From Sphagnum magellanicum (taxonomy: Eukaryota > Streptophyta > Sphagnopsida > Sphagnales > Sphagnaceae): a stretch of DNA of 64,000 nucleotides. Under the pieces are notes generated by a model. It had not been told where the DNA came from and made no database searches. It was given only the letters and a program-made list of their open reading frames with translations. The DNA lies in the NCBI GenBank assembly GCA_021904315.1, contig CM038925.1, forward strand, positions 6,574,501 to 6,638,500, written 5' to 3'. The translations under genes were made by a program, and so were the position numbers. This document shows, one piece after another, positions 3,784-53,774 of the stretch; within the stretch, counting starts at the first letter, position 1; the number at the start of each line of letters is the position of its first letter.

Positions 3784-4317
3784 TACCCCACCACCTCCCT
3801 CTCCCAATCTCCAATCCCTGAAAAAGAAAAAAAATCAAAAAAATTAAAAATCTTCAATCTACCTCCAACACCACATACTTACATCATCTTTCAATTATGT
3901 GAGAAATGAGATAATTTGACCCACCCACCTTCACTTCTTTGGACCCCTCCCTCCATGTGCTTGATTTATGCTTTTTTGGTCTCTTGGGGGGGGGGGGATA
4001 TTTCGGGAACGTGCCCGAAATAAGAGAAACGAAGAAGAGAGTCGGGCAGCAGAGAAAGAGCGCTCCTCGTCGTCTTTGTCGTCGTCATCGTCGCGCTCGT
4101 CGTCGGGGTTGTCGTACTCGTCGTTGGCGTCATCGCGCTCCTCGTCGTTGGCGTCGCCCCGCTTCTCGTCGTGCTTCTTGACGACGGTGGAGCTTCCGCG
4201 TAGATAGGGTACAAACGACGGAGCAAGCGTGAAGCTCTACTCTTCTCTCTCTCGCTCGTACCTCGACACGCCTTGCTCTTCTGTTGTCTCCTGTGCAGGA
4301 TCTGTTAACATCTATCC

Positions 4318-4323
4318 ATGTGA
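4318..4323 (+). promoter_or_regulatory. Minimal upstream ORF (AUG-UGA)
   Basis: An ATG is followed at once by TGA, 168 bases before the main start codon. If it lies in the mature leader it is a start-stop uORF, a type known in plants to stall ribosomes and cut downstream translation. Whether transcription starts upstream of it is not known from the sequence. Confidence 0.4.
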
Positions 4324-4433
4324 CAAGAAGCGGGGACTGGTTCTGGAGAGGTGCCTTTGTGGTTGGAACAGCACAAAGCAGGGAGGGCGGGGTTTGGGGT
4401 TTGCGCTGGTGGAGGAGGAGGAGGAGGAGCTCC

Positions 4434-4469
4434 ATGTTTCTGTGGCTGGGAGGAGTTTACGCAGAGTAA
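4434..4469 (+). promoter_or_regulatory. Upstream ORF of 11 codons in the RING gene leader
   Basis: ATG at 4434 opens a frame of 11 codons (MFLWLGGVYAE) closed by TAA at 4467-4469, 21 bases before the main ATG. It overlaps no coding sequence, so reinitiation at the main ATG is possible. A regulatory effect is inferred from position only. Confidence 0.4.
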
Positions 4470-4490
4470 TAGTCATAATAGGAAAGGGAA

Positions 4491-7400
4491 ATGGGATCCG
4501 GAAGTAGTCGGAGTGCATCGGATCAACGTGCTGCTTTAAGGCGAGAGAGAGATGCTGCTACTACTGCTGTAGTCATGGTTGCCGCTGCTCATTCCGTGGA
4601 TCGCCGTCCTTCGTTTCGTCGTAATCCGGAGGTGATATGAACCGAACTCACTCCCTCTTTTTCTCTCTCGATATTCTTTTGCTCCCGGAGCTCTGTTTTT
4701 TCCCAGTTGTGTTTGCGAGACACTCCCGAGCATTATATTTTGCGTTTCTAGCGTTGCGCTTAAGGGTTTGCGTTGAAGTCCAAAACAGGGAAGTTTTGAT
4801 GCTCTTACCACGATTTGCTGCGTGTGTATTGCTGCTTTCTTAGAACAGACTTATCATGTGAGGGAGTCAGTAACAAGGCATGATTGTATGCCTGGTTTGA
4901 TGGTCAACAGTTCTTTTGGTGTTGCACATGTTAGAATCTGTCTTGAAGTCGAGGGGAGATTTCAGCCGGGTTGTCTCAGCATGATATGTGTACATTTGTC
5001 TGCTGCTGCTGGCTGTTGTTTCCAGATTCTGGTGTTATATTTGAAATTCTGGTTCTTTTTTTACTGAACCTTCATGCTTGGTGCTTTTGTGATCGGTCCC
5101 CAAGATGACATGCATGGTACCTAACATGAGAGAGAGGGATTCTTCAGAGCATGTTCCATGAAACATGAATTGCACAATTCAGAGTGTGAGTACCATGCCG
5201 CTCCATGAGCATGTGAAGACTTGTGCTTTACTGAGCTTGTGGTGCATGTGTACGATTGTTGCAGAGGTTGAATGTTGAGGAGATTATGAGGCCAGGAAGG
5301 CGGGATCATTTGAATTGGTGTAGCATTGGCAGTCATGGAGAGGTGAACCCATGGGAAGCTGAGGGTTCAACCAGCAGAGAGCTAGGCTCTTCAGAACCTC
5401 AACCATCAGTCAATCTTGCTGTGGGTGGCAGTGCCAACAATTCCCAGTCCACCCCGTTTCACCATGTGCATTGGGATAGACCTAGCCTACCATCAGGTGG
5501 AGAAGGCAATATCCATCATCTGGAATCAGAAGCAAGTAGTAGTAGTCAGCCTGGTGTCTTGAGAGGACAGGGTGTTTACTTGCAGAGAGGAAGAATGAAC
5601 TCTTCCTCAGGAATTCATGATGAAGAGGCAGGTGGGAGCCGGCAGCTGCTGAATGATGAAAGGTTGCATTACACTTGTGAGACAACACAGCAACGGCATC
5701 GAGTGAATGAGATGCAGGAACGGCTGAGAAGCTATGCAGGGCTGCCATCATCTGTTGATTTGGATGGAGGAAGCTTTATGTTGTCAGATTCATCAGACTC
5801 ATACCACAGAATGGAGCTGGTTTCTGGTTCTGCAAATCAAGGTCTTTTTTCATCTGCATCAGATGACAGAGATGCAGACAGTACATCAACATGGCCAGCC
5901 CCATCTTTATTGCAGTCTTGGGGTCAGTCAAATGTGCGGGAAGGCAGCTTTTCACGTGGTCAGTCCAGTGCAGGCCCAGTTTCAGTCCGTAGCAGTACAT
6001 CTGTGGGGCAGAATTCTGGCCTGTCAGCTTCAGAAACAAGGCGCAGTAGTGGAAGAAGGCTCTGGGATGCTTTGTCAAGAGGAACATTCCATCGCCGGAC
6101 TTCCCCACAGACTATGGCTGCACTAGCTGATTTAGAGGAGAATTCCATTGTATCAGGTGATGTTGAACAAATTGTAGATGCTGAAGCCTTACATGGCAGC
6201 AGGAGCTTGGACTTGGAGGAAAGGAGGAGACGTGTGCGTTCCCAGGTAGGGTTTTTGGCTCTGGCAAAATGTTGCCTTGCATGTGGCTTAATTGTGATCC
6301 TCTCTCTACCTTCTCTGTACATGAATTGTGTGATGTTGAAGTCAAGTGGATGCAGGAGACCCAGAATTGTGCCATATATTTTCTTCATTTTTTTCACCAC
6401 TCATCTGTCTATGATCAACGTTGCAGGTATGGGCATTGCGTCGTTTAAGCAATGGTTTGGATGGGACTTCATTTCATTCAAGACTGTGTGCTGGAAGCCA
6501 CAATGGTCACCGTTGCTCATGTGAAGCACACAACATAGGTGATGACTTGGATACAAGAGCTAGCATCTCCCGGATCATCATGCTGGCTGAAGCTTTATTT
6601 GAGGTGACCCTCCTTTGCTGGAAAGATCTTGGCTTCACAATGTACCCATCACAGGTTGGTAGAGCGCAGGTCTGATGTGCATATGTATAATTCAAGGAAC
6701 TCTTTTATTGGACATTTGACCAATTCCATGTTTTCTGACATGGGTGTATGTCCCAGTAGTGGATCATGGTTGGGTGTCATGCTTTCTGAATTGTGGTCAC
6801 TCTGTGTTAGTCATTATTTTATGCTGCAAGGCCAACTTTTAGGAGGGGCACTAAGTGGGTGCTAGGTTTGGCAGGTTCTTGATGAGATACACAGGCAATC
6901 AGTGGCATTGTCCCGGTCAGCCACTGTGTCACTGGCCTCACAGCCTGCACCCCTCAATGTGGTGAATGCGATTCCTCTTCATGCTCATTGCAAACCTTTT
7001 CATGACTCTGACGAAGAGGCCCAGTAAGTTGTTGAGTTTTTTCACCTTTGACAAAAAGCCTTTGATCTTCAGATTTTGAACCATAAGTAAGAGGAGATGT
7101 ACTGGCTTTTTCTGCATGTAGTGAGGTTAGTTGAGGGGTCAAATGGTTCTTGATGGTTAATAGCCATTGAATCGGGCCACCAGACTTCTGCATCCAGGAG
7201 CAAGGTGTCCAGAAATGAGAGCATTGGAATGTGGCATCCAAACTATTGTGATAACTTAGATTGGACCTGCGCGTCGGACCTCCCTTGGGGACCACTTTTG
7301 GTACAGCACTCTTAGAGCAAGTATTCTTTTGGATCCAGGTAGAGTGAAAGAATCTCATTCAGTCAGATCTATGCCATTGCATGCCAGTTACAGAAACTGG

Positions 7401-8350
7401 AAGACTTACTCTATTTTGTTGCAGAGCATATTTTGCTGTGGTTCTTCCATCTCATTGTCCTTATTTTCCTAGGGTCCAGGACCCTTTTGGTAGAAGGAAA
7501 TTGCTGTTACTCTTGAATCTGGACTCCTGTTTCATTCAGTTGTAGGTCATAATGTGCTGAGGTCAGGAGATTGATAGTATCCAGTACAGGTGCCAATTCA
7601 GGATGATGCAGTTTGTATGGATGAAATCTCTTGGTACCAATTTGAGTACACCAGGACTGCTTTAGTGGAACACCAATCCTACTTTATATTCACTGAGATA
7701 GAATCCACCAGTAGATGTGTATTGTTGGTACAGGCCTGGCCAACTGAAGACCAGGTTGCAGTTTGAAGTGAGTTTAAACAAACATCCACTAGACGCAGAG
7801 GACCATTTCTCTTTAGGATCAACATTCGTTCTTTTGGTGGGAATATTGAGCTCATGTGAGGTTCAGGGAATATGTGAGCTTAAAACTTACATTTTCTCAT
7901 GGTTCATTTCAGGTGCTATATTTGCCTTGTGGAATATGAGGAAGGGGATGCCATCAGAACACTTCCTTGTAAGCATGAGTACCATAAGGATTGTGTTGAT
8001 AAGTGGTTAACGGAGGTCCATGGGTAAGTGTGTGCACCTCCCCCTCCCTCAGTGCAGGTCATGGGTTCTTCTGATTCCATGCTTTTTTAGTTCATAGGCA
8101 CTCTCCCTTATCCTTTTTCACCCATCTTGAATGTTGTGAAACCAGGAGAAGTGCATGTTGCATTTCTGTCAGATTTGCTTTCCATTTATTGTGTCAGGTT
8201 CTTGAATTACTGTTGCATAAACTGGACGTGCATAGTTATGATCCAGCTCCTGACAGAGGAAATGGTGGTGTGTGCAGAGTGTGCCCGCTGTGCCGAGGCA
8301 ATGTTTGTGAGCCCAAGGCAGTAGAAACTGGAGTTGAAACAGCTGTGTAA
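4491..8350 (+). CDS. RING-H2 E3 ubiquitin ligase, six coding exons, complete
   Basis: Coding exons by splice signals and frame: 4491-4631, 5265-6245, 6427-6603, 6875-7023, 7913-8023, 8278-8350 (TAA), giving 543 aa; all introns are GT-AG. The start is the first ATG after an in-frame TAG at 4479-4481, with G at -3 and +4. Residues about 48-374 (exon 2) are Ser/Gly/Arg-rich and look disordered, ending with a conserved-looking [12 protein letters not shown] block. Residues about 390-440 hold a Cys/His cluster (RLCAG...CSCE) and the [20 protein letters not shown] helix. The C-terminal RING-H2 finger spans C484-C525: CxxC, C502, H504, H507, C510 and CPLC, which fits E2-dependent ubiquitin transfer. 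I recall plant RING proteins sharing the RASISRI and HEYH...CVDKWL blocks but cannot name the ortholog. Reading through intron 2 (6246-6426) produces a false hydrophobic tail. No membrane segment is coded by the spliced exons. Confidence 0.9.
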
Positions 8351-8880: not shown

Positions 8881-10780
8881 TAGTTGGCCTCAATTGTTAA
8901 TACAAGCAATTAGGTCAACACCAATGGCTCTTGATTTGGAAGGTAACCATTTCAATTTTGCGTTTATTTTGTTTGGTTTGAGAGAACCTTTAGCACAATT
9001 TTTAAAAATATTTAATTTTTTTAATAAAACCTCAGGTTTAGACTCATAATCATATGATTTAAATAGTACGTCTATTTCCATTTATTATGCACTTAATTGG
9101 ACCAAGTTGAAAGTAACATCCTTTAGCTTCAAATTCTTTCATTTTGAATAGTCCTTGCAATTATGATCCTTTTCAAACTTGGGGGCTGGCAACACATCTC
9201 GAAATCTTAGTTGCATGATGATCCTATATCAATCAATCCCTTCCAATTGAAATTGAAGATTAGCATACAATGTTCAGGTGGCTATATCTTTCTGTAAAAA
9301 GAACTTAATCACAACCGTTTGTGGTGCAATGGTGGCCTTTGGATTGTCTAGTTTTCCTTTGTGACCTTTAATTTCTTATGGAAAGATCCTTCATAAGTTG
9401 ATCCAATTCCAAACTATTTATCTTTTGAAGATTTGTCTTGAAGGCTTTTGGATGTAAGGTTTTGAAAGGAATCTTTTATAAGGCACTTGGACAGTGAATC
9501 AAACATGTTGCCCACACACTTCAACCACACTCCCCACCTTCCAATCAATAATTGCCATAAACAATTGCAAATTTTCAAGGTTAAAATAATTGGGCAAGGG
9601 AACCTTGTAATGCATATAGTGGTCATCCTTCTTTCCAACTTCTTATGCTCCCCCAAAGTTCCTTACACTAATTGCAAAGAGCAACCAAAGACTAGGAACC
9701 TATTATGGCACATAAAGAGAGGTTGAAGAGATGATAAAATAAGATGGCAGTGGCCAATTTATATTCATGTTCGATTTTGTGAAGGCACATAAGTTTAAGT
9801 TAATGGTGACAACAATTCCCACTATTTCAACATGATTGAAATTTGGTTACCACTTGTTTAGAAAACGATTGAAATTTGGTTAACATCTCTCCATAGAGCA
9901 ATTTGGATAAGTGTAATAGCTTGTTAGGGTGAATGAAATTCAGTCATTTTCCTTGGATAGAGGTGATTGCTATTTGGATAGGGGTGGATAGGGGTAGATC
10001 GGGGTGATCATTTCTTCAACATGGGTGATCACAATTTGATCAATCCAAAAACAAGGTTAAGTAATATTGTGAGTGATTCTCAATCATAATCTAAATGGCT
10101 ATGATTATTTGCATGATTTTATGAACCATTGATATCGATGTAATTGGTTAGATGGATGATTGAAATTTCCCTTTTTTTGAAAACTATCCAACAAAATTTT
10201 CTTGTTGTAACATTTAATGTTTTTTTAAATATTCAATAAAAAATGCATGTGTTGGGTCTGAAGACATGAACTTGTCCGCAAAACAAAGGTGGTCAGACAT
10301 AATGATTATTTGTACAATACAAAAATCTTTTGATAAAAGATATTTCAACAATTTTAACAACATGATTGTGAATCAGTTATTTTAAAAACACATTGAAAAA
10401 TTGATGCACAATTTGCAAATGTATCCTACAAAGGGTTATGTAATTAAGGGCATCATTATAGGAATGTGAAAAGAGACTACAAGAAATTGACAAGTACACT
10501 ATCATGAATATTTATTTGGAACCTAGTAATGCCACTATCTATACAAAATCTAATTGCCATTGTTATAAAATCTAATAGGTTTGTGGCCATTGTTACACAT
10601 GTTAGGAAATTATTGTAATGCAATGCAAACCATGTTTTAATTATTATATAAATGGGTATTTAATCCACGAGTTTTTTTGCACACATTATCAATAACAACC
10701 TATTTTTTTACTGTCTCATGAGTTTTCAACACAATTTGGATTTCAATTGTTTTGTTCCATTTTGAAAAAGATAACAAACA
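8881..10780. other. AT-rich intergenic DNA
   Basis: No gene recognised. Short ORFs at 9414-9726 overlap on both strands and resemble nothing known. A local repeat of the phrase 'gataggggtggat/gatc' lies near 9955-10010. Confidence 0.5.
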
Positions 10781-10790
10781 TGGTTTATCG

Positions 10791-11400
10791 AACTTTTCAG
10801 GACTTAGATTTGTACCTTGTTGTTGGGAAGAAAGAGGTGAAATCCATTGATGTAAAATACCAAGTACAAGTTGGATATTGGGTAGTAAGGAACCATTTGT
10901 AGGACTACAAAATTTATGCAACAATGATTTGTATGTTTGATGGAGACTTTTTCAATAGTTTATTACAACTTCCAGCAGACAATCTGTGGTTAGCACATTC
11001 AACAAATCGGAACTATAGAACTCAACTCTTGAGGCAATCAAATAATCTATTGGGATTTGTGTCTTCGAATAAGTATTCGTTTGAGATCACAATCAACAAA
11101 AAATGGTTAGAGAACCAAAGTGACTTGAAGGAAAACGAGTACGAATCACCAACATTTGTTTATTGTAGGAAGACAAATGTAATGGCGCCACTACTGAAAA
11201 CAAGCTTCAAACTTCACTTAGAATGTAAGGATCTTGGAACAATGATGACGTTGAAATGCCGGAAGTTATGAATCGTTTAGGGGAATGGACAACAAACTGA
11301 GTTCAAATGTTGAAGGCGCTCTCTAATACTACCATAGATGAAGCCATTGACATCAATGACATTTCAAAACCATGAAAAAGTAGTAGAGAACTATAGGAGT
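10791..11400 (+). pseudogene. Relic of a dispersed repeat family (family C), copy 1
   Basis: The plus-strand translation at about 10795-10910 contains a DLDLY block and a VGYWVVRNHL block. These match a minus-strand ORF near 44307-44425 that reads DLDLYPP and VGYWASNNGL with the same spacing. Downstream an open frame runs 10924-11271 (about 115 codons, frame different from the block above). The family is not one I recognise. The pair is most likely decayed mobile DNA; frameshifts separate the pieces. Confidence 0.4.
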
Positions 11401-12950
11401 GTCATTTGCAAGACCATGAAATGAACCAACATGATTGAAATGGAGTAATTGAATTGGTGCAGGATGTGTATTTGTTTGTGTGTGTTTGGTTATTTGATCA
11501 TGGCCACTTGAGAAGTAATGCATTTAAAAATCTATGATAAGCCATATCATTAAATTTTCTTTTAGGAGTTGACAAATGAAAGTCTTGATTTGCTTGAACA
11601 ACAACATCCAAATGAGAATCACATGAAAGTAATTTGTAAGACCATCAAACAAATTGACAAATCCAACTAAAAATTGAATTATGTTTTACCCATTACAATC
11701 TTGGAAATTTGTATATGGATTGAGTTAGGATGGAAATTTTATTCATAGTATAAAACTACTTGAGATATAACAATTGACACTAGATTCCATATATGTTGAA
11801 CACAAATGCAATGTAGGATATAGAAGGACATATGAAATATTTACGGTCATTAAAAAACAAGTCAATTGAGAAATGGCTTCAAATATATTGAAAATTACAT
11901 TCATAATTAGAAAACACATTCCACACAAGATTGATCTCACTTGCAATAAATATAGAAAATAAAATTCCATCTCTTGATGTGGTTATTCATTATTTAAATT
12001 TGAAATTTGTTATTAAGTAGCCACAAACTTTATTAGAAATTGTTATGAATTGTTTAGGTATTGTTTAGGTATTTTAGGTATAATTCCCCACTGTAGAGCA
12101 CAACAATCGTTAGAAATATTGACAATATAAATAATTATATACATTTGTGTGTTAGGTTGCTAAATTGATAAAATTGAAAGGTTTGATTTGATACCAACAA
12201 AATAATTTTGATATAAATGACATCAACATAAATTATTTATGAAAATCTCCAATTCTATAATTTGAATATGTTTCCAAAAAACATGTACATTGGAACTTTG
12301 GATAGAGATATTCTCAAAAAAAACGGAACACTAAAAAAACAAGAAAACATATAATCTTTATTTGACATCCATGTAATGTGTACAAGTCAATATGGTTTTC
12401 CAATCGCAAAAAACCCAATTCTCTTGTAGAATTTTACAGATGTAAAGGATGGTTTGATTGAACATTCCCATGAATCATTTAAAGTTTGAGATCATTATGA
12501 AAGCAATGATATATTAAATTATTTTCCAAAGAAGTAATAGGTTAAAAAATTTCTCTCAGAGAAGTAATTGTTTTCTATGGGGACAATTTATGAAACTTTT
12601 GATTTTCCTTGATGTGTGCTTTAATCATTGCAAGGTAGAGGTCATTCTTACAACCCAAATTATTTAATGTGAAAACCTATGCAGAAACAAAGAACACCTA
12701 AAGAACATGGAATTGCATGGGTAGAATATAAAACTAATCCCATGACTGGGCTTAAAATTGGAACATGCATTATAATAGTTAGCATTATATTATCACTCTT
12801 GTTTGACAAAGATTATCCCAACATTGTGGTCTGTACAAGCTTCGACACAAATTTTATAGGAGTTCCAAGAGGATGAATTAAAAGGAGCTTTGTGTGAAAA
12901 TTGACAGAAAAGAAAAGTTTGGCGTAAAACATAAAAATGTCATTAGAGTT
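11401..12950. other. AT-rich intergenic DNA
   Basis: No gene recognised. An ORF at 12679-12876 has a hydrophobic middle (about IIIVSIILSLL) but no upstream or downstream coding signal, so it is treated as chance. Confidence 0.5.
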
Positions 12951-13019
12951 CTCCACCCAACCTTAGGGCCACCCAACGGGTTCATAAACTTAGTGATCCA
13001 CCCTTGAGTTCAAGAAAAA

Positions 13020-15990
13020 ATCCTAAACATCTTCTAATGTTTCATCATCAATGTAAATTCTAACTCCTAGATCATAACCTTGGGAAACTATATGTGAAAG
13101 AGGTGGAGCCAGGGACTCCAGAGCTAGGGCTTGAGCCTCGGCATATGATGGTAGCAAAAAAGAAATGGTAGAATCTTGGAGCATCTCATCCTCCCTAAAT
13201 GAAAATAAATTCTTCAATGGAAACAATACTCTACAAATAAAGAAAGAGGAAGTGTGAGGTGTACAACATAAAGAATTGAAGGAATGCATAATATTGATGC
13301 AAGTGAACAACTTATTCATAATCAAGCAACCTCCTTGAACGTTTCTTGATAGGAAAGTCAATATCAAAGCTATGAACATGTTCGGTGTTAGGTTCGAGCA
13401 TGGCCATTTCAATGAGAGGCTTTAACACCTCCATAAAAACCTCCATATCTAACTCCAAAGCCAAGATGTGGCACCTAAGGCTTTGGTAGGCCTTGGTAGT
13501 GTTACTTGCAAGGTGAAAGATGGTTAGATACAATTTTTGATGCAAAGATTGAAAATGAATTTTTTGAGGAAGGGCACATACTTGTGGATGCAGATAAACT
13601 TGCAATAGAGGATCTTGTCTTCAACTAAACATCAATCAAAGCAGTAGCAAGATGCATTTTCTTTGCAACCTTAAAAGGTCTGTCGGCCTTGGACATAGAC
13701 ATAGAGGCCCTATTTGCCCAATTATACAACACATTCTCATTATGAGCTTCAATAGAGTTGTTCACAAACTCATCAGATGGTGAGGAGAAGACGAATCTCC
13801 CATTGCTTGAAGAGCTCCCATCAGGGACCTTAACAAGATGAGTTGCACAACTAAGGAGAGTCTACAAAATTAAAGACAAATTTTAGTTGAAGGAGAGAAG
13901 AAGAAAAATACATGAAAGTTTAATGGATTGTGATGGAACCTTGAAAGATGGGTCCTCGCTATTTGTTAGTGGTAATGAATTCACCACATCCCACTTCATC
14001 CGAATCTAAAAGCCATAGCTCTTTAGATAAGATTTGACCTCCTTGAAAACTTTGAGGTCATCCGGGTGAAATAACAAGACAACCCCATTAGAGGCCAATT
14101 TTTTTTTGGCAAAATCAAAAATTATAGTAATGTATTCATCAACCTTCTGATTCCAAACATGAATATCATTTGGGTTCCTGGATACAAAAGGAACATGGAG
14201 GTTTCCATGAACGTCTACAATGACAAGCTGAACCTTGCCACCAAGATTCATCTACTTAAAAAGAAAAAAAAAGTTAATGCATCTAGGACAAGCTATTATA
14301 ATTATGTTGTAAAGTGAAAGAAAATGTAATGCAAACCTACGTTGTGGATGAACTTGGAGATTGTCTCATATTCCAGCGCCAAGTTTGGGATGAGGTCTTG
14401 GTTGCCACAATGGAAAGGCAATGTGAATGGGAAGACCCTATGGTGAAAGCTAGGACGCCTATTGGAGGTAACAACAATCGGACTTGGGTGGGATGGAAAA
14501 AACTGTAATGATCCCTGTTGAGTGCTTTGAACTCCACTAGGAGAAAGGGTGGGAAGAATAGGTGGCATAGTAACCTTCTCTCTTTTCATATCCTCTGTTG
14601 TTTACAAACCTACAATCTAGTTCAAAGAAACCTCAACAAAGGTGTTTTAATCTACATTGGAGGAGGGAGGTTCGGTCACTTTCTCCTTCAACTTTCCCTT
14701 TCCCTAGGAAGCAATTTTTCGCCTCCCACCCTCAACCTATGTTCTTGTTAAGTTTGCAAGAGTCTCCGTGAAAGATGGCCTAATGTTCTCCCTCAAGGGA
14801 ATTTTCAAGGTGGGGGTGCTATATTTCGGGCAGTCAAGGTACCAACCACATTGGATAAGATGGGAAGAAGGCCAATCCTTGAGTAGGTCCTTTTAAAACA
14901 TAATGCTATCAACCTTGGGGTCATGCCAGATGTCCAGGAGAAATCTCTTGCTACAAGAATAAAGAAAAACAATGATGAACAAGTTGAATACAAAGGTAAA
15001 AAAAAGTCTTGAAAGGAGTCTAAAATATTTCATACCTTATACATATATTCAAAAAACGTTTCTGAGGTTAGGGAATGCCATGTCTTGCAAGATTTGGACT
15101 AACATATCTTGTAAACCTTTGTTAGCATTGCTTTTTTGAATTATTCCAAGGGGAAAATCCCAATTGATTGGATTTTGAAAAATTCATGAACAAGGCTATG
15201 TTTTATGTGGTCCAACTTCATCGATTTATAGAGATACAAAGAGAAATGAAAAAAAAATCCTTTTAAACCTAACTTTGATGTAGGAAATAAAAGAAGGGTC
15301 AAAAACATACTTGTTGAGTTCCATCATGGCAATGAGGAGCTCAACAAGCCCATGAGAGGTCTCAAGGACAATGGAATCCATAAAGATGTACCAGGAGGGC
15401 TCATCATTATGTAGACAATTAATATAAGGTAGCCAAATTTGCAATTTGTGATTACCATCCCAAACAAAAAACATGCGCTTGGAGAAAAACTTGAGGTTAG
15501 GATTGGCAAACAAGAAAGTCTCAAATCTCTCATTCTCAAACATCTAATGCTAACTCCAACAAAACATGTACTGCTTTTGGAATTTTTCTTGCCCTTTCCA
15601 ATTAAAAGGTGAAACATAAATTTTTTTGTCCCTTTTTCGATAGCTAGTCTAAAACACCCGTTCCATTTTGAGGATGTTAATTTTGAGAGCAAGACAAACA
15701 ACTAGCATCAATATCATCTGGCACAAGGGAATAGTCATTTGGGTTTTGTTCTTCAGCACCACCTTGTGTTTATCAAGGACTTCAAAGCTATTAAACTTTG
15801 TCTGACTTTGAACAGCTTAATAGTCCTATCAAAGGACAAAGAGTCTGCATATGCCACTGCTTGGGAAATCTACCAAAAAATTCAGAATGTTATAAATGCA
15901 CAAAGAAAACTGTGAAAATAATCCATAATTTTCAAACAAAAGTCAATTCAAAATGCACTTAATACTTGAAGCGTCTCCATAATCCTTGTG
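13020..15990 (-). pseudogene. ParB-like/methyltransferase-like repeat-family gene, degenerate copy 1
   Basis: Reading on the minus strand, exon-like blocks follow one another from high to low coordinates. At about 15540-15300 is a block with FFVWDGNHKLQIWLPYI, resembling the DGxHR core of ParB/sulfiredoxin-like domains, closed by a GTATGT donor near 15311. At 15200-15040 is a second block, also closed by a GTATGA donor. Then come a linker (about 14980-14560) and a segment at about 14250-13940 reading DFAKKKLASNGVVLLFHPDD, then KSYLKSYGF and MKWDVVNSLPL. This alternation is typical of the C-terminal half of a Rossmann methyltransferase. Blocks at 13860-13600 (VLYNWANRASM) and 13600-13040 (SFLLPSYAEAQALALESL) finish the gene. 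In-frame stops (for example after YGF) make it a pseudogene. A diverged plus-strand copy lies at 39.9-41.9 kb. The domain calls are from motif reading only. Confidence 0.55.
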
Positions 15991-16109
15991 ATAGAGATAT
16001 CTTTGCAAGATATGTCTTGTAAAAGTAGACACAATAAAGTTTAGCATTCTTTAGGGGAAAAAAAAACTTGAAAGGAGATGTTTGGGTTTAAAAAAAAAAG
16101 GAGCCAAGC

Positions 16110-16800
16110 TCTTGCTCCCACGTTTAGAGCTGAGCTAAATTTCAACTCGTCACATTTTCTGATGCATCCAAGGTTCTTTTGACGTCGAAGATCTTCAATT
16201 GCAAGAAAAGTAAAGAATTGAACTAGAACTCAGCTTTTAAAATAGTTTTTGGCCAAACTTTTCTCAGTGTTGAGAGAAGCTTGGCTTCATCAACAAATGA
16301 AGAGCCAAGCTAGAACTTGGCTCCACTTTCCAAGCTCTAGTTTAGTTCCATTTCCCCCTTGTGCTTTTTTAAGGGGGATTGAATTCTAGTTTAGTTCCAC
16401 TTTTGGAGCCGAGTTAAATTTCGACCATTTTTTTTGGTAATTGAACTTCTTTCAGTGTCAAGAGAAGTTCGACTACAAAAACAAATTGGAGCTGAGCTAA
16501 AGCTTGGCTCCTTGAGGTCTTACTATGCTTCTTTTGGTACTGAGAGAAGTTCAATTGTAGCAAACCAAGGAGTCGAGTTTAGTTCGGGCTCCATGTTTGG
16601 AGCTAAGCCTAAGCTCAACTCCTTTTTTTCCTTTTTTTGGTCGATTCCACCATCGTTTTAAAATCCAAACTCAAGCTTGCATTCAAGTTGAAGTTTTGTT
16701 GAGTTCGAATCCAAGCTTGAGCTTGATTTTTCTACACATAAAACTTGAACAAAAAACCAAATTCAAGTTTCAAGTGCTTACTTTGAGCTTGCTACTCTCC
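16110..16800. repeat. Degenerate tandem repeats with 'gagctgagctaaa' and 'gagagaagttcgac' motifs
   Basis: The phrases 'tg-gagagaagcttggc' (about 16268), 'tcaagagaagttcgac' (about 16457) and 'ctgagagaagttcaat' (about 16539) recur, each near a copy of 'gagc(t/c)gag(c/t)taaa' (about 16129, 16406, 16490, 16570). The units have diverged and spacing is uneven, so this is an old array. No coding role is apparent. Confidence 0.55.
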
Positions 16801-18610
16801 TCTTGAGGTGTGTTGAGATCTCTTGGCGTGTTTGGGCCTTCTCCTTCTTCATGCACAAAGAAATCAATAGGAAATATTCTTCTAAGAATGAACATTTATA
16901 TACAAATGTGGATTCAAGCCCTACCTCTCTACTTTGTGAAACCTTAGAAAAAGGTAAACAAGGTTTTTCTAAAAAGTGATATTTTATTGAACTCAAAAAC
17001 AAAAACAAAACTGGGGTGGCCAAAAATTCAACTAATGGTTTTTTCTTATCAAAGAAGGAACTTTTAAATGTTTTTCACTTTGACTAAGCATTTAAATCAA
17101 AACTAAATTATGCAGGAAATTGAGAAATGTATTAAAACCTCATTTGAGAAATTAAAAAATATCTCAATTAAGCTTTGAATTGATCTAGTTGAGCTTTACA
17201 AGGATTGAGTTGCGTGGAATTATCCAACATTGACAAATGCAATCTTAAATTAATGTATAAGCATTGTTAGATTTATTTATGAAGAAACCCTAAACTTTAA
17301 ATTGTGAACACATTTTCTGTTAACAAGAAGTTTTTAAAAAAATGTAATTACGCTAACATGTATTGAAGGATGAGGGCTTGTGCTTTGTGTGTTGTTGCCA
17401 TCATTCCCTAAGTCTTCGCCATAGCTTGCCTCTACCTCCTTCTTTGATGACAAAAATCCACTGGTTAGAACTCATGAAATTTTCCAAATTAATGTACTTT
17501 CATTCACAATGCAATGCATGTGGGCCTATAATGCATAAAATGTTACCTTTAAAGATTCCTCCCTCCTTTGAGAGAAATCAAACTTTTTTCCTCTTACTAA
17601 TACTTCTATCTCCTTCATAGTTGCACAAAAAATGTATTAGAAACTATGAAAGTTGCGAAAATACAACACAACACATCTTTGTTCCACTCCAAGAAAAGAC
17701 ATAACACCTCTTGTTTAGGAACTTGCAAGGTGCGTTTCCTTGTTTTCTTCAATGCCATTGTTAGCTTTCGTTGTTTTGCTTTTATATGAGTCCATTTGTT
17801 GTTGCGCCTTTTTCTATTCCTGTGTTGGGTTATGGTTAGAAGTTCGCTAACCTTCTACATCTGAAAAATGTTTCATCGAATCCACTCTATGGTTTTTATA
17901 CTTTCTTCTTTGAAGGATGTAGTCAATTTTTGGCTTTTACAACATCCCTTTTGTACCCATGACCATTTAAGGAAAATATACATAATGATTATTGATTCAA
18001 ATTGGTTTTCTGTGTGTCAAGATAACTCATTATTTGATGTGGCTATTGGGTTTGATGCCAATCATTAAATGGATTAGGTAAAAGCTATTGACAATTTGTT
18101 AACATCCTTACTTGCAGCAAATGTGTCCCTTGTTGCAATTCTAACAATTCAATGTTATTTCATTGCCATTCAGTTACATGATAGACGTGGTGGTAACTAA
18201 TGTTTCGAATAATAAAGACAAAATTCCAAGAATCAATCAACTACACTTCCATCTTTCATTAAGATAACAAGTTTGAACAATTACAATTTGTTAGATTACA
18301 TTGTTAAAATGATCAAATGTTATTAACTATTGACCTAACAAACATTTTTTTTCACAATGTGTACGGAATTTATAAAAACCTTCACCTAATTAATTTAATG
18401 TTAACAATAACCATCAAATCTTTTTGAACATATTCCTAAGTATTTGTGAAGCCTTAAAGAATAATTGCACAGACATATATCCCAAAATTGAAAGGACTGT
18501 TTAGTTACGACTATATTCAAGATAGTTGTTTTCTTGGTCAATAGGTTAGGGAGAAGGTTTATTTGTTCAAGATGTCCATCAATGGAATTGCGTTTGGATT
18601 TGATTTGGTC
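16801..18610. other. AT-rich DNA with no supported gene
   Basis: ORFs of 60-85 codons occur on both strands, such as 17363-17620 (+) and 17868-18068 (+). None has recognisable motifs. The last may be a decayed upstream part of the Mutator-like relic that follows, but this is not shown. Confidence 0.4.
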
Positions 18611-19865: not shown

Positions 19866-20690
19866 TGTTGCAACCCCACGTTGGGGCTAAGTGTGAGAAG
19901 GCAACTCACACTCCCAAAAGTGGGAAAATGAAGTCCTCCGGGACTCCCGAAAACTCAGAAGACGATTTGAGGGGTCAAATCTCCTCGCCTTGATGCGTTC
20001 TTTATATCAATGGAAAGCTCTTGAAGTGTAGATGTCCAAAATGGCCTCACATTGACCATTTGGACATCTTCAGCCCAAGTTATGGGAAAAAGAAGGGCCG
20101 GGAGTCGAACTGCCAGTTTGACTCCCGACCACTAAAAGTCGAGAATCGACCTCTTCCCGACGTCTCCTTAAGGAGTGCGACACGGCGTTGGAAAGCTCTC
20201 GACGAGAGCTACAACTTTGGTTTAGAGCTCGTCCCGATCCGAGCTCGGGGCGAGGAGCTATGAGCGTCCAAAGTCCTGGGACTTCAACCCGGGATAATTT
20301 TGGGACTCCAACTTGGGAGTCCCGGGAAAAAGAGCCATTTGGATGTAGCCTCGGCGGAGAGCTACAAAGTATACTATATGGGGGAAGGTGGTGGTTTCCC
20401 CCGAGTCCGGGCTGTGGTGAGTCTTGTGTGTAAAAGTGCCCGTGGTTTGTCCCAACACCCAAAGGTGTTTCCGAATGTGAACTAACCCTCTTGTTGTTGG
20501 TTTTGGATGCAGATTCGTGCTTGATCTTCTAGTCCATCTTCCTAGTCTAATCCCGGAACTTCTAGCACACCCCTCTACCCCTCTTTAGTGCTGGAAATCG
20601 GGAGCACCCCCTCAAGTCCCAACTTTCCGCAACTACACATAGTTGGACCCTCAAGTGGGTTCAACCCGGGACTTGGGAGTGCGTCACAAA
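19866..20690. mobile_element. GC/CpG-rich LTR-like block, possible solo LTR
   Basis: About 0.8 kb of GC-rich DNA sits in AT-rich surroundings. It starts TGTTGCAACCCC and ends near GTGCGTCACA, so TG...CA ends are possible. It contains many CCCGGGACT/GGGAGTCCC-type inverted words and a TATA-like stretch near 20370. No polyprotein motifs lie on either side, which suggests a solo LTR. I found no clear 5-bp target duplication, so exact ends are uncertain. The short ORFs inside (20021-20485) overlap on both strands and look like composition artefacts. Confidence 0.45.
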
Positions 20691-21865: not shown

Positions 21866-21868
21866 AAT

Positions 21869-22210
21869 TTCCATTCGTCATAACTATTTTGGAATTACTT
21901 TATCCATACATTCAATTAGTCGAAAGTTTCATGCAAACATTCATCTACTTCCAATCATCATCCAAAATATCATTCATGATCCATGTTCATCCCAATATTT
22001 CATGTTATTTGTAACTTTCATCCATGTACATGTGGTTTTCATTTGGTATAATTGTTTTGGAATTAGTTTCATTTACACACTTCAACTTGATGAATCTTTC
22101 ATCCAAACAATTCATCTACTTACAATTATCATCCAAAAAGTTCATTGATGTTTAATTTTCATCCAAACATTTCATCCATTTTCTGGTTTTCATCCATGTA
22201 CATGTGGAAA
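21869..22210. repeat. Two diverged direct repeats of about 168 bp
   Basis: The block beginning 'ttttggaatta' near 21887 recurs near 22055. Both are followed by 'ttcat(g/c)(c)aaac', 'attcatctact' and 'catccaaaa'. A third partial copy of 'tcatccaaacatttcatcc' follows near 22160. ORFs here follow the repeat and are not genes. Confidence 0.6.
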
Positions 22211-26174: not shown

Positions 26175-26555
26175 GATGCATGTGAAAAATGCTTTCAACT
26201 TTTGACTTAGGTTGAATACTTTGAAAGTGACGATATTGTGCAAAATTGAGTCAACTATTTTCCAAGAATCAAATAATGTAATACTTTGAATGTGACGATA
26301 TGTGTATTGTTGTACAAAGATGAGTCAACTATTTTCCAAGAGTGAAATAATATACTCATGTTGTGTGATGCATGTGAAAAATGCTTTCAACTTTTGACTT
26401 TGAAGACGATGATATTGTGCAAAATTGAGTCAACTAGTTTCCAAGAATCAAATAATGTAATACTTTGAATGTGACGATATGTGTATCGTTGTACAAAGAT
26501 GAGTCAACTATTTTCCAAGAGTGAAATAATATACTCATGTTGTGTGATTCTTCAT
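26175..26555. repeat. Higher-order tandem repeat, 192-bp unit in two copies, each with two sub-repeats
   Basis: The word 'gatgcatgtgaaaaatgc' begins at 26175 and again at 26367, and the following about 185 bases are nearly identical apart from a small deletion. Inside each unit a sub-repeat ('tactttgaa-gtgacgatat' ... 'gagtcaact(a)ttttccaaga') occurs twice, so the order is A-B-A'-B'. A W-box-like core (TTGAC on the other strand) lies in every sub-repeat. Confidence 0.8.
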
Positions 26556-37483: not shown

Positions 37484-39478
37484 GAAACTACTAGTAAAAA
37501 AACGTCAATTTGCGACTACAATTAGTGACTAAAAACCAGTTGTAATCAACTTTGCAACTATAAAATCTTTTAGTTGCATAAGTGAAGTCACATTGAACCT
37601 TTAATTGCAAATGATGATTTAGCATGATGTTAGCACATTTCCCATGGATGAAATATACGGTTAACATATACACTTCCATCCTTTGACTAATGTATAACAT
37701 TTGCAACTACTAACCATTCTTTTGTAACTAGTAAATAACCTTATCACTACTCCTTTTGGGGAATATTTTTAAAAATATTCTTTAAAAAGTCTTCAATAAT
37801 TTTTTTAATAATTTTTTAATTTTAAAAAATATTATTATGTCAACGTCTATGTAAAAGATTTCAAAACATATGTAATTTTCAAAAGTTTTGAAGTTTATTA
37901 ATAAGTTCTTTTAATGCTAAAAAACACACGTTATAGTGCTTGATGAGTGCTTTTGAGAGCTTTTTATTCATCGGATATTTTTTCAAATTAATTCACATGT
38001 TCTAATGATATGTTATGAACCTTACTATATAGAAAAACCTTATGTTTTCAACACCAATTTAAAACACCACTTTTAAAAGTATAAAACTAAGCATGCATTA
38101 CCTTTGTTATGGCTCATATTAGTGTGACTACACCCACATGTGCACAATGATGATCCATTGTGGCACATTCCTATGGACTCCATATTGTTTAACACATCCC
38201 ATGGTCAAGTTGAACTCCTAATTACCATTATCAACCTCAACAAATATCCACAAACCTTTTTTGTTTTCTTAATGTAATTTTTCTTGGAACATTGATTTTC
38301 ATTGGATTTTTTTGTTTTTTGGGAGGTTTGTGGAGTCAAGTCAAGCCTAGTCCATGATTTTTTTTTGTAATGAATCCATTTGAATAATCCCCTTGGAGTA
38401 GTTCAAGGATGTGTTACTTGGAAATGTGTCTAAGAAGTGCAAGAGCAAGTCCCACAAGACTTGGTAGTCCCTCACTTTTGAGGCCTTTTTTTTTCACATG
38501 TATAAGGTTTGAAATATTATCTCTTGCCCAAAATTAATACTTCATATATTAGTTGTGTTTTTTTCAATTGAACTTTCTTTTTTTCTAACAATGTGAGATT
38601 TTTGCAATAGGAAATGTGGAGGTCGAATTGTATTATGAAGAGTTTCCTAGCAGTCAAAAACATTTTCTATTGAAGCTGCAAGAGCACATGGAGAGGGCAA
38701 TGCAAAAGGTAAAAAAGGATCATTATTTGATGTTTTGCAAACACTTACTAGGTAGTATGTGATTTTGCTTTCAATCCAAATTTTTGAAGGAAATTCAAGT
38801 TCACTATGATATGAACTCAAAGTTGAAAATGCTAATATAAAAACTTGTTATAAATGTTGGTTTACTCTTGTGTCACTACATAGTAGTAGCTTTCTTGGCT
38901 TAAGTAGTGGAATGAATGTGCTATTTTGAAAGAGACCAAGAAATTCCCTAAGCAAGGTTTCTTTGACTCCCAATTTGACAAGTGGTTGCACAAGGAAACC
39001 TTTTGGCATCAAGTAATTCAATCTATCTATGCTTGTCCATCCTCAAACTCTACATTTTTTTTTCATTTTGAATATTTTTTTTTTCATTCCATTCTATTTC
39101 GTGTAGCTTGAAACTAAGGCATTCAAGTTCTTTGAAGTAATGTTATCAGACCTTGACTTGAAGTGAGAAAGGTCCCTAGTATGATTTCACTTAGTTCATA
39201 TATCCAACACTAAAGGTTGGTAGCATAACAAACTTACTTCTTCCACAAATTCAAGCCCAATGATGGAATTTGCAAAAACAAATCTCGGGAACAACAAAGT
39301 GGGGGCAAGGAGGCTCTCAAATAGGTGATATAATATATTTTAACTTTCCTTGTTCAACCCACTCCTTTTTTTAAAAAACATCTAATGCAACCACTTTTGT
39401 CTAATGCAATTATTTTTTGTCCCACGCAACTAAAACATAGTTGCATTAGACAAGGTGTTAATAACCATTTTTCTTCTA
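37484..39478. mobile_element. Candidate CACTA-like element with a captured gene fragment
   Basis: The left end reads ACTACTAGTAAAAAAACG. The right end, reverse-complemented, reads CACTAGAAGAAAAATGG. Both resemble CACTA-type termini and both are followed by short subterminal repeats (TTGCAACTA/GCAACTA words at 37540-37730 and 39390-39450). Inside, exon-like plus-strand blocks with splice-like edges read ELYYEEFPSSQKHF (about 38625-38710), KFPKQGFFDSQFDKWLHKE (about 38940-38998) and TKAFKFFEVMLSDLDLK (about 39110-39165). I do not recognise the protein. No transposase was found, so the element would be non-autonomous. The ends are imperfect, so this is tentative. Confidence 0.35.
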
Positions 39479-39919
39479 GTGATTTGCTCTTTTATCCTAC
39501 CCTCAATGCTGAAAATAGGTCACAAATAATTAAAATTAAGGAAACAATGATCTTGGATCCATTAGTCTTGGAATCATACCTTTATTTTTCCAATACCCTA
39601 TTCGTTTCTTTTCTAAAGAGTCTTTCAAAGTCAAAAGCCATGTTCATTAACCCCATACTTTTATTTTATTTTTTAATTTTTCTTCAAAATCAATCCCCTT
39701 GTGCATTAACTCCTACATAATTCTCGTTGCCAAAAGTATGTGAAGGACCCTAAAAGTTTTTTGGATTTGGGATGGAATCTTTGTCATATGAATTCCTTTT
39801 TCATATTTTTGATCTAGATTACCAATAATAACATTATGAATTTTCCATTTTCCTATAGGTATTTTTATCATGTTTTGTTTGCCAAGGGAGCAATTGACCA
39901 AATCCCCAACCTTTTAAAG

Positions 39920-41910
39920 ATTTAGCATGCATGACCCTAAAATAGACAACACAATGTTTTGTAAAAATTTGTTCACGAAGTAGCCATCTTCACACTTTCA
40001 ATGTGGTTAGTATTTTGATTGTCCCAAAGACAACACTCCCTTTTCAAAAATTGCACTAAGGGAGAGTCTTGATCTTGGATTCATGGAGAACCTTACCAGT
40101 TTAGTTGGGACACATGGTGAAGGTGGAAAGAGGAAAGTTTTTTCAAAGGGGAAAACTAAGGGGAAGGATAAAATGAAGGGTGTAGTAGACTTGGATGCAA
40201 ATAGGGATGCATTTGTTGATGTTCCATTACAAGAGACTATTGCACCTTCTAGAGTTCAATATTTTGAAACTAAATATATCAAAACTTCAATTAGTCCCTC
40301 CTACTCCTTCTCATGGTAGAGGCCCAAATACACAACGTGATTCATTGTGCTCCTTCTAATTTATTCCATTTCACCCCAAGCCTAATCATTTTGTCCTCCA
40401 CCAAGCTATTTGGGTTCCATTAGAAAGTTTTTCCATTTTCTTGGCCATCAAATGTGGTGAATAAAATCACTACTAAAAAATGGCATGTATAATATATATG
40501 ACACCATGTTAAAATTCAATCATCAAATGAGTTCATGTTCAATTCCCATTGTTTGTCCCAAACACTTCAAGCATGGGCTTTGGTGCATTGACTTGTGCAT
40601 CCTATTATTTTGATTTTGGGCAAGTGAATCCAAAAGACAACGTTCATCTTGGCCTAGATGACGTTCCATGGAACCTACTTACTCCTTTGATCTTGATTGT
40701 CCCTTCAAAGATTCCTCCTTGGAATAGGAAGGTGGATGCCTACATTGTTTCCATTTTTGATTTTGCAAAAAAGTTCCTAGCCACTAATGGGGTTGTTTTA
40801 CTTTTCCACCTTGATGATCTATATGTTCTAAAAGAGGTTAGGTCATATCTAGAGAGCTATAGGTGAACGTGATTTGGATGAAGTGGGCCATGGTGAACTC
40901 CCTACCACTTACTAGTAATGAAGACCCATCTACTAAGGTTCCATCTTTTTCCCATATTCATTGATGCAATTCCTACTATTTGATTATCTTCAAATTAAAT
41001 AACTTCTTATTTTTCATATGATGCAAATGGTATTGAGTTGGATTATTTTTTTGGTTAGGGTACTCAATTAAAGTTCATTTGTTAGTGGTTGATTCTTCTT
41101 CTCCTCCCCATCAAATTAATTGTAAACAAGGGTATCAATGTTTGTGGAAATGATGTTTTGTATAATTGGATAGACATGACCTTTATGACCATTTTCAAGT
41201 TGGTTGGTAGGCTTTCAAAGCAATGAAGGAGCTTCATGTTGTTATGCTTAGGGTCTTGATTGAAGTCTATTCCAAGTTGAGCACCCTTGTCACTGATTTG
41301 TCAACATCCATAGGTTTGTCCCCTTTCCTAAAATTTGGTTCATTCTTATACAACATTTAACAAGTTTATTTAACTTTTTTCATGTAGGCAAAATGTCAAA
41401 GCTCGTAAAATCCTTGGTTGTCACATCCTTGTTGGAACCTGGAGGTTCTCAAGGAGGTGTTGGAACCTTTAGTTGTAGTTGCCATGCCTAAGGTTGACAC
41501 CCCCTTCCTTTGTGCACAACTTTGACCTTGATCTCATGTCAAGATGTGCTCTAAGAGGATCTTTAGCTATGACTAAGTTTGCCTCTTGTTTCAAGATTCT
41601 TTATTGCAATCTTGTTTTTTTTGTTTTTTCTTCATATTGTTATTCCATTTCATTTGCAGAGGTCAATCATTGCTCAAGCCCAAGAGTCTCCCTTTCTCCA
41701 AGAGGGAAGAGTTCCTATGGCATCCTTTTAACAACTTATTATTGCCATCATACATTAAGGCTAAAGCCCAAGCCATGGCTTCTTTGCTTTTGCCTCCTTG
41801 TAGAGGTTCCTTTCATTATGATCCTACAATTAGAGGTTACTTTGATGATGAGGCATTAAAGTTCAATGTAGGATTTGTTTTTGAGTTCGAGGGTGGATTG
41901 TGGGGTTGAT
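39920..41910 (+). pseudogene. ParB-like/methyltransferase-like repeat-family gene, degenerate copy 2
   Basis: Plus-strand blocks match copy 1 (13.0-16.0 kb, minus) in the same order. The linker GEGGKRKVFSKGKTKGK (about 40113-40165) corresponds to VEGGRRKIAS in copy 1. DVPWNL (about 40660) sits where prokaryotic-type adenine or cytosine-N4 methyltransferases carry DPPW/DPPY. FDFAKKFLATNGVVLLFH and KEVRSYLESY follow (about 40755-40863), then MKWAMVNSLPL. VLYNW-like and MKELHVVMLRVLIEVY blocks lie at about 41155-41275, and LLLPSYIKAKAQAMASLLLP (about 41740-41800) ends it. Frameshifts and stops interrupt it. The part carrying the ParB-like motif in copy 1 was not found here. Intron-like gaps fall in similar places in both copies, so the family was duplicated as DNA, not by retroposition. 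Confidence 0.55.
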
Positions 41911-41959
41911 CAACCCATTGTGTGGTCCTTAGGTTGGGTGGAGAATTCTAATAAAACTT

Positions 41960-44300
41960 TGATTTCTTGTGCCACAATTTTGTGCCTTTGGAATTGTCAA
42001 TAATAGTTCCCTTGGCCTTCATGTTCATTTTTATGAATGTGTGTTTCAAACATTTGGATTCCAAAATATTAATGTACAAATCCAAATGTTTAAAAGTATA
42101 AATTCAATTCAATTTTTTGGATCAGATTCAAAGAATAAATTTACACATTTACACATTTAATTTTTAGGTTTAGATTTTGGTACAAATGAACCATAATGTT
42201 ATTTAATCTATATTTAAAAAGTTATATAAGAATACTACCTTTATTTTTACAAATTACTTACAAAAGCCAAATTATTTTACAAATTGCAAACTTTTGTGGA
42301 AATTCTAAGGTTCTAATAAAGTGCAGATGTGTACATTAATAAAATTGAAGTACATATTAAGATTTATACAATTTACAAATTTAGGCACAATTTACATATT
42401 AAAATGTAAGTAGCTTGTTTGTAACTTGTATAGATTTCAAACAAAGTACACATTAAGGTCTTTTCTTATTTTCAAATTTAACTATAAATTAAAGTTTGAC
42501 CAAATTCACAAATTACAAATCATGGTACAAACTTAAGTTTGGATTTTTATGTTCTAATAAATTGCAAATCTCTACATTTTAATTGGATTAAGGTTCACAT
42601 TAATGTCATTACACATTTAAGATTTGTATAGATTGCAAATTACAAATTAGAATATGGTAGCTTAATCTATAATTTGTTAAGATTTAAAATAATGTGTAGA
42701 TTACTTGGCCTTAACTTATTTCCAAATTGAGGTACAGAGTAATGGTCATTTTCATATTAAGGGTTGTACATAATTGCTAATTGTAAATGATGGTACAAAT
42801 TAAAGGCTAAGTAATTAAAGATCAAATTTTTAAGTTCCAATAAATTGCATATCTATCCATTTTCACCAAATATGATTAAATCATTTAAGGTTCTAAAAAT
42901 TAATTTCTTAATTGAATATATGTCCTTGCCACTCATATTCTTGTTTTGGGCAAACTCGATTAACAAACCATTATACATTCCTCAAATTCCATTTTTCAAA
43001 TCCTAGATTCTATATGCTAGCAATTTTACATTTCAATGTTCTATCATCATACAACACATTCAAGGCCTTTACACATCACTTAATCAAAACATCTTGATTT
43101 TGTCCTTGGTTCATTTTGTCATCTAAATCTTCACAATGCAATAATTTTTTTATTCTTACCTACAAGCTTGAATCCTACACTCATAATTTTATTCTTTCAA
43201 TTTTTGTTCACCAAACCTCTCAATACAACCTTCCTTCTCAATGAAGGATCCAATCTACCATGCATATTTTAGATCTTTAATTTTCACATTTTAAAACAAT
43301 GAGTCCCACACAAAATAATGCAATCAAGCTACTTTGAATGAGTGTTCCATGACACATCCTAAATTTCATCATGATTGCATGTATGCTATGTGCATGGTCC
43401 ATATCTTCCAAAATTATACCGTGGCTTCTTTTGCATTCATTCAAAGCCAATTGTTTTGAGCTTTGTGCCTGAGTGAAGAACTCAACACCCTTTATTTCCA
43501 CATAGTCTTTCCACATAGTCCTTTCCACAATTGATATTCCCATCCTTGTGTTTCGAATTTCTTAGAATTTCTGATTTCATATTCCCGATCATTGAATGAC
43601 ATCATCCATTTATCTAAAATCTCAACCAATACATTAATCTACTATTGCACATATTAATGTAAAAAATGTGGCTGTCTTTCTTTTCATCTTCAAGAACTAA
43701 GTTAATCATTTTGTTCAAATTAAAGACAAGATAATGCACTTCCTACATCCTCCCTGTGTCATTAAATTTCAATTTTGTATAATTGTGATATCAAACTTGC
43801 ATTGTTTCATGTTTTCATTGTTGGCTGTAGTTTCTTCCATGAATGTATTCAAGTGAGCTTACTTCTTCAGTTGGTGACATTTTATCATTGATATTGCTAT
43901 AGGAATCATGGGTGTTGTTTGATGCACTTTGCTTTTTGCCTACAAACTTTCTTGAAAGCCCTTCCAAATATGGCATATTAGTCTACTCACTTGCACCTCC
44001 TTGGGTCCTTTCATTTTTAGCACCAACGTGTCTTGTTTTTTGCTATAGATTAGGATGAATGTCTTAAATGTGTCTTTTAAGTCCACATGGTTTTCTAATC
44101 ACTTCTTGCACATCATGTCTTCAAGACCATAGGTTACTTTGTTTTTTTATCCTTGGAAGATAATCTGACTACCTTTGGAAATGTGTTTTATAGTTTTGGT
44201 TGATTGACCGCATTGGCTATGGATTGTCTTTAGAAGCTTGTCACAAGTTGTTTATAAGTTTTAGAATAAACATATGAATTATTGTTGTTTAATTTTTGTA
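41960..44300. other. AT-rich DNA with a diffuse degenerate repeat (about 42050-42850)
   Basis: Words such as 'aaattgcaaa', 'ttacaaatta' and 'aagatttgtatagatt' recur across 42050-42850 with about 130-200 base spacing, suggesting an old tandem array. A minus-strand ORF at 43277-43543 has no recognised motif. No gene supported. Confidence 0.4.
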
Positions 44301-44303
44301 GTC

Positions 44304-44597
44304 CTACAACCCATTGTTTGAAGCCCAATATCCAACTTTTAGTTTGTACTTTGAATTTACCCCAACCAATTCATTTTGGTCTATAGGTGGATATAAGTCT
44401 AGGTCTATTGGAGTTTTGAAAGAATGTTGTCCACTCCCTTTAAACATGGTTATAATGTTTTTGTCATGCTTGTTTTGAACAACTAAGATTGTAAAGTATA
44501 TAGGCTGCAAGGGCATTGTTGATGCAAAAATATTTTTGTACATGTAAACAATATTGACATAATCACTAATGAAACAATGGAAATGCATATGCATCAA
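44304..44597 (-). pseudogene. Relic of dispersed repeat family C, copy 2
   Basis: The C-terminal 38 residues of this minus-strand ORF contain DLDLYPPIDQNELVGV and KLKVGYWASNNGL. They align without large gaps to a plus-strand translation at 10795-10910. The protein is unknown to me. The two copies support an old dispersed family. Confidence 0.4.
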
Positions 44598-53770: not shown

Positions 53771-53774
53771 ACCA

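Follow-up and report, generated by a model that had tools for sequence, protein, structure and literature searches.

The window analysed here, a 64,000-nucleotide stretch of the genome of the moss Sphagnum magellanicum, contains a decayed repeat in which a DGNH motif resembling ParB lies next to a segment resembling a methyltransferase. This raises the question of whether the two segments belong to one gene, what kinds of domain they represent, and what kind of unit carried them.

Extent and architecture of the gene relics

Both segments named by the original prediction are present on the minus strand, where FFVWDGNHKLQIWLPYI sits in the open frame 15543-15229 and DFAKKKLASNGVVLLFH..KSYLKSYGF..MKW sits in the open frame 14251-13883, about 1 kb beyond the first. 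They belong to the relic of an intron-bearing gene (copy 1, about 12913-15813, minus strand). The block originally delimited, 13020..15990, therefore contains a real relic but understates its extent, since homology between copies runs from 10264 to about 17500. Comparison of the window with itself revealed a second copy in inverted orientation at 38140-41981 on the plus strand, whose matching blocks are colinear with copy 1 at 67-74% identity, and the view that both copies are decayed is borne out by stops, a broken frame and a lost core. Relative to the copy in another locus of the genome (L018/L019), copy 1 is missing about 960 bases, including exon X3, at 14941. The features are as follows, with exons lettered as in the profiles described below.

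15310..15813, minus strand: copy 1, ParB-like exon, 168 codons long and interrupted by three TAG codons, with the DGNH core at about 15443-15470 (supported by exon HMMs P and A and by the profile match)
14740..14892, minus strand: copy 1, conserved exon G, linker region (exon profiles; exon G is present in 34 of the 45 sources searched)
13946..14251, minus strand: copy 1, methyltransferase exon for the catalytic half, which spans the regions of motifs IV to VIII; motif IV is DVHGN
13583..13861, minus strand: copy 1, exon C, ending within the first part of SAM motif I, with a donor that splits a codon
13315..13503, minus strand: copy 1, exon D, remainder of SAM motif I and the next strand and helix
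13008..13190, minus strand: copy 1, exon E, C-terminal extension
10744..11184, plus strand: copy 1, convergent gene 2, exons Q2 and Q3
10264..17483 (to about 17500), minus strand: copy 1, stretch of about 7.2 kb homologous to the copy in L018/L019
38047..38247, plus strand: copy 2, ParB-like exon (3' part), in which the DGNH core is lost
38893..39012, plus strand: copy 2, exon X3, missing in copy 1
39963..40100, plus strand: copy 2, exon G
40639..40931, plus strand: copy 2, catalytic half of the methyltransferase, motif IV being DVPWN
41030..41267, plus strand: copy 2, exon C, frame broken
41433..41570, plus strand: copy 2, exon D
41706..41864, plus strand: copy 2, exon E
44006..44459, minus strand: copy 2, convergent gene 2, exon Q2, with a weak Q3 (E 0.023)

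When we searched the window's own assembly (439 Mb in 31 contigs), the best 150 of 243 candidates were scored as matches for the methyltransferase-like exon and the best 150 of 292 for the DGNH exon. Among these best 150 per exon, the places are spread across the numbered contigs, and none of the large ones, C1 to C20, is without them.

The family is over-represented several-fold on C20, which holds 8 of 147 places of the catalytic exon, 10 of 150 of the ParB-like exon and 8 of 150 of gene 2 (among the best 150 each), compared with an expectation of about 1.6 places if C20 is assumed to measure 4.8 Mb; none of the C20 places listed lies beyond 4.58 Mb. The available text of PMC9946827 describes a Sphagnum genome of 20 chromosomes in which chromosome 20 is minuscule, at about 5 Mb, and C20 is probably this roughly 5-Mb sex chromosome.

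The gene structure was reconstructed with exon-by-exon profiles from 45 sources, namely 43 loci of the same genome and the two window copies, some of which are too short for all exons. The exon series is fixed as P-A-X3-G-B-C-D-E, with P and A forming a single exon of about 170 codons, and about six spliceosomal introns split the gene. Intron position and phase are conserved, and exon ends fall mostly at GT..AG across subfamilies, with some sites mutated. The description of the repeat as intron-bearing and multicopy is confirmed, each exon being represented by 150 places or more. Wherever a source has both the ParB-like exon (A) and the catalytic one (B), which is the case in 21 (19 of 25 fetched loci plus both window copies), order and strand are the same; the remaining fetched loci comprise five with B alone and one with A alone. 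Genome-wide, we compared the best 150 of 292 A places with 147 of the best 150 of 243 B places, three second fragments of B being omitted. A B place was found within 10 kb of 67 of the 150 A places, in all 67 cases downstream and on the same strand, at a median of 2.5 kb, compared with 0 to 5 such pairings in 20 random placements. Since order and strand are constant in every one of the 21 copies with both exons, the ParB-like and methyltransferase-like exons are one gene and not unrelated neighbouring repeats, as the original prediction had allowed they might be.

The methyltransferase domain and its motif IV

The spliced exons B, C and D (METHYLTRANSFERASE) show the permuted order of class-beta amino-methyltransferases, running from motif IV to motif VIII and then to X and I. 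The first half comprises a DxP-type motif followed by the strand-helix-strand '..NGAILLFHDDD..VLKEIKSYLESYGF..MKW..', and the second half reads '..PF..AKEMHLSTLQALIDV....SLVVDL-S-T-S-T-G-N.IRACQSLGRHILALE'. The KSYLKSYGF..MKW segment, previously attributed to the C-terminal half of a Rossmann methyltransferase, does come from a methyltransferase, but from its catalytic half, which stands first in class beta and is followed by the SAM-binding half (13628-13861 and 13315-13503 in copy 1). In SAM motif I (DxFxGxG), the D is kept, the first glycine is replaced by S in most copies and is G in locus L020, and the second glycine is kept in copies with an intact donor; where the donor is intact, the codon of the glycine near the end of the motif is split by a phase-1 intron.

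When pieces of the window were searched as single sequences, neither Pfam nor the PDB sequences yielded a meaningful match. In the consensus profile search proposed with the original prediction, PF01555 (N6_N4_Mtase) was the top Pfam match of the exon consensus, at matching profile positions (E 0.013-0.039), with bit scores of 14.3 and 15.9 that fall below the curated Pfam cut-off of 26.7; the single typed member from L020 did not match PF01555. The exon consensus also matched PHROG 6952, a DNA methyltransferase, with an E value of 2.6e-5. The tblastn search against phages yielded 22 matches, none of them significant by itself (E 0.9-9). Of the 20 listed, however, 19 carry the annotation DNA methylase or methyltransferase, and the twentieth repeats one of these phage genes with a different accession; all three plasmid matches (E 3-9) are annotated likewise. 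Four of the tblastn matches were checked, and all are PF01555 proteins (E 1e-33 or better). Aligned with hhalign to a profile of 142 PF01555-type proteins, motif-selected from 175 prokaryotic, plasmid, phage and viral-contig loci, the moss family matched end to end with a probability of 96.3 and a score of 69.8; family columns 1-227 fall on positions 70-266 of the 142-enzyme profile, the residues at the uncertain exon junction being written as X. The controls reached at most 20.0 in 100 column shuffles, at most 21.4 in 100 block shuffles, and 18.0 with the reversed alignment. These comparisons strongly support descent of the C-terminal domain from the class-beta (N6_N4, permuted) amino-methyltransferases, as the name methyltransferase-like had implied.

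The catalytic (D/N/S)PP(Y/F/W) motif of the PF01555 class is absent from the family, which has DVPxN instead of DPPY. Across the 32 rows covering motif IV, position 1 is D in 11, N in 8 and E in 8; position 2 is V in 22 and I in 9; position 3 is P in 14 and L in 14; and position 4 is G in 12, S in 8, R in 5, L in 3 and W in 2, so that an aromatic residue is lacking in 30 of 32. The residue that follows is N in 23 rows and D in 8. An ancestral tryptophan at position 4, as might be read from the DVPWN of copy 2, was considered and set aside, since the codons at this position do not favour TGG (GGA 10, TCN 8, AGA 5, TTA 3 and TGG 2 of 32). Because distant subfamilies share it, the loss of the aromatic residue probably predates the subfamily split, and catalysis may have been lost while the family was still active.

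The DGNH exon

The DGNH core is the most conserved stretch of its exon. Even in decayed copies, W is retained in 29 of 34, D in 31 of 34, G in 22 of 33, N in 29 of 33, H in 30 of 33, and R or K in 23 of 32. The comparison set consisted of ParB proteins from 22 genomes and from the fetched loci. The columns of the family profile that match best are those of the DGNH(R/K)LQAW core, which align with the GERRWRA or DGHxRLEA core of ParB, so that the profile match contains the ParB/sulfiredoxin-like core, G(E/H)xR or DGHxR with an alanine helix. With an alignment of 63 rows, hhalign gave a score of 18.0, compared with a maximum of 14.2 in 100 shuffles, and a probability of 1.7. With the 14 in-frame members, the score was 20.7, the maximum of 200 shuffles 19.8 and the probability 4.0. 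The same 14 members scored 24.4 against 25 more diverse ParB rows (maximum of 200 shuffles 19.3; probability 12.3% over 28 columns), a subset that was picked after the first result and contains three duplicates. The untrimmed alignment of these 25 rows gave no match, its scores of 10.5 and 11.3 corresponding to only 4-5 aligned columns located elsewhere.

Family searches were negative for this exon. PF02195 matched neither the 13 members and the consensus nor anything in the moss genome itself, and the other Pfam matches were at chance level and in single members; profile searches of PHROGs, NCBIfam and PDB sequences gave no match, and no relative was found when the alignment was compared with the genome and viral contigs. 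The AlphaFold model of the window's ParB-like exon, built from two sequences only, has a pLDDT of 36.7.

These observations could also mean that the exon is unrelated to ParB and has converged on a short motif. The empty searches, the aligned region of only 28 columns, the roughly 50 additional residues that separate the preceding strand from the motif, and the low pLDDT are all consistent with such convergence. Nevertheless, we consider it unlikely, given that the best profile match falls exactly on the ParB core and exceeds 200 of 200 shuffles twice and 100 of 100 once, that the motif is the best-conserved part of the exon, and that a class-beta methyltransferase is a known fusion partner of ParB-like domains. 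The N-terminal segment is thus graded as probably ParB/sulfiredoxin-like. The core match exceeds its shuffles, as expected for the DGxHR core originally proposed, but the low hhalign probability, the empty family searches and the unusable model keep the fold assignment at this level.

Probable mobility, age and nearest published relatives

Downstream of the ParB-methyltransferase gene, a conserved coding stretch lies on the opposite strand, which we call gene 2. Of 147 methyltransferase exons drawn from the best 150 of 243, 48 are followed by it in the opposite orientation and no more than 10 kb away, compared with 0-4 in random placements. Gene 2 has no Pfam match above chance; that it may encode the transposase is a guess. 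Its exon candidates in the genome number 478 and 260, more than the 243 of the methyltransferase exon, and gene 2 therefore also occurs apart from the methyltransferase gene.

No intact copy was found among those examined, and most scored copies carry stops. Divergence was measured over exons B, C, D, G and X3 in 461 pairs, the least divergent of which differs by 17.5%, equally across the three codon positions. The third-position ratio is 1.17 in the six closest pairs and 1.48-1.67 in pairs at 30-60% divergence. As the third-position excess is confined to distant pairs, the protein appears to have been under selection while the subfamilies diverged, after which the copies drifted.

Of the 296 stop codons that could be classified in the exon alignments, 118 lie at consensus columns for W, Q or R, changes from W to TAG alone accounting for 40. 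This raw count is at most suggestive of C-to-T decay of methylated DNA and does not enter the argument here.

We give a probability of about 0.7 to the reading that the two copies in the window are dead remnants of an ancient mobile element that was copied as DNA and carried two convergent genes, one encoding a ParB-like segment and a class-beta methyltransferase and likely specifying a transposon accessory protein. Its mobile nature is argued from the number of places per exon, the retention of introns, homology that continues between copies for kilobases beyond the exons, and the convergent gene 2; carriage by a transposon is what we infer from these features. Terminal inverted repeats and target-site duplications were not found in the window around the copies, where the inverted pairs are short, AT-rich and unconvincing as ends.

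Fusions of this type were originally said to be known from prokaryotic mobile elements, which is broadly correct, although the closest published example comes from a eukaryote. According to the available text of PMC12477816 (2025), the 21.5-kb Sola1 element Sola1-1_Ec32 of the brown alga Ectocarpus encodes a 1104-aa protein with ParB-like and N4/N6 methyltransferase domains on the strand opposite its transposase, and ParB-methyltransferase accessory genes occur in brown, green and red algal transposons, those of green and red algae being credited to Iyer 2011 and Petroll 2025. The moss family resembles Sola1-1_Ec32, as far as described there, in joining both domains in one protein (the ParB-like part provisionally), in belonging to a multicopy element, and in having another gene on the opposite strand. 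By the same description, it differs in its moss host, its many introns and its altered motif IV, and whereas Sola1-1_Ec32 has a Sola1 transposase and ends, neither was identified in the dead moss copies. According to that paper, the green and red algal genes have the same two domains as the moss family. The moss family can be regarded as the same kind of gene as the Ectocarpus transposon accessory genes.

With prokaryotic and phage PF01555 enzymes the moss family shares motif order, spacing, the SAM motif region and a ParB-like part ahead of the methyltransferase, ParB-type motifs preceding the methyltransferase in the N6_N4_Mtase proteins of two such loci (L202 and L208). These enzymes differ in having no introns, an intact DPPY/W motif and a shorter ParB domain. 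Bdelloid rotifer N4CMT (PF01555, five conserved introns) and the Marchantia 4mC methyltransferase are, like the moss family, bacterial-type amino-methyltransferases in eukaryotes; unlike it, they are described in the available part of PMC8885841 as single host genes that are active, have no ParB part and are not multicopy elements. We found no report of ParB-methyltransferase transposon genes in land plants in the open-access literature, which is weak evidence given that subscription papers and most preprints lie outside it, and the accessible part of PMC3671162 holds nothing bearing on the present question. What is apparently new here is the land-plant host, the six or so introns, and the family-wide altered catalytic motif. 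The bacterial-type module of ParB and amino-methyltransferase, so far described in algal transposons, is thereby extended to a moss, and several hundred fossil sequences make it possible to ask whether such elements persist through base methylation or through DNA binding alone.

The gene product would most likely have acted as an accessory protein of a transposon, as described for algal transposons, its ParB-like part binding the element's own DNA and its methyltransferase part marking it. Alternatively, the methyltransferase part may only bind the element's own DNA, since its catalytic motif is altered throughout the family. An extended form of this alternative, which we put forward as tentative and on balance doubtful, is that this land-plant lineage of transposon ParB-methyltransferases was already without catalysis, that selection acted on the fold and the DGNH core, and that a pseudo-enzyme bound its own element's DNA without marking it, the ParB-like segment being the part that was needed. 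Should the altered motif be ancestral, the widespread view of these genes as writers of marks on the element that carries them would not apply to this lineage.

Among the alternatives to a two-gene element, the ParB-methyltransferase gene could be the passenger of a non-autonomous element, with gene 2 as a second passenger and the transposase encoded elsewhere. The lack of a transposase match for gene 2 and its surplus of exon candidates would fit such an arrangement, which we nonetheless hold to be rather unlikely, as the convergent order is fixed in 48 of 147 cases and the algal precedent has its transposase on the opposite strand. A moss host gene family that was segmentally duplicated and then decayed appears still less plausible. 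It would explain the retained introns, the coding constraint on distant pairs and the element termini not found in the window, but the places are scattered over contigs including every large one, most scored copies have stops, gene 2 travels along in a fixed convergent arrangement, and the exon-by-exon search of the moss genome revealed no PF01555 or PF02195 member at E 0.01. Large DNA viruses carry bacterial-type methyltransferases, yet an endogenous viral insertion is highly improbable in view of the six or so conserved spliceosomal introns, the dispersed, multicopy units and the fact that no adjoining virus genes were seen.

Apart from the two relics of the proposed mobile element, the window holds other repeats. 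Positions 19871-20686 hold a further repeat, matched 7-10 times in the fetched loci, where it lies inside or beside several element copies. An inverted pair at 26976-27522 and 58821-58294, 82% identical over 551 bases, belongs to another dispersed repeat, and adjacent direct duplications of 150-195 bases are found at 26175-26548, 53470-53776 and 21868-22207 (91%, 96% and 77% identity, respectively). The region 4001-8000 has a G+C content of 0.45-0.50, compared with about 0.3-0.4 elsewhere, and is perhaps another inserted element.
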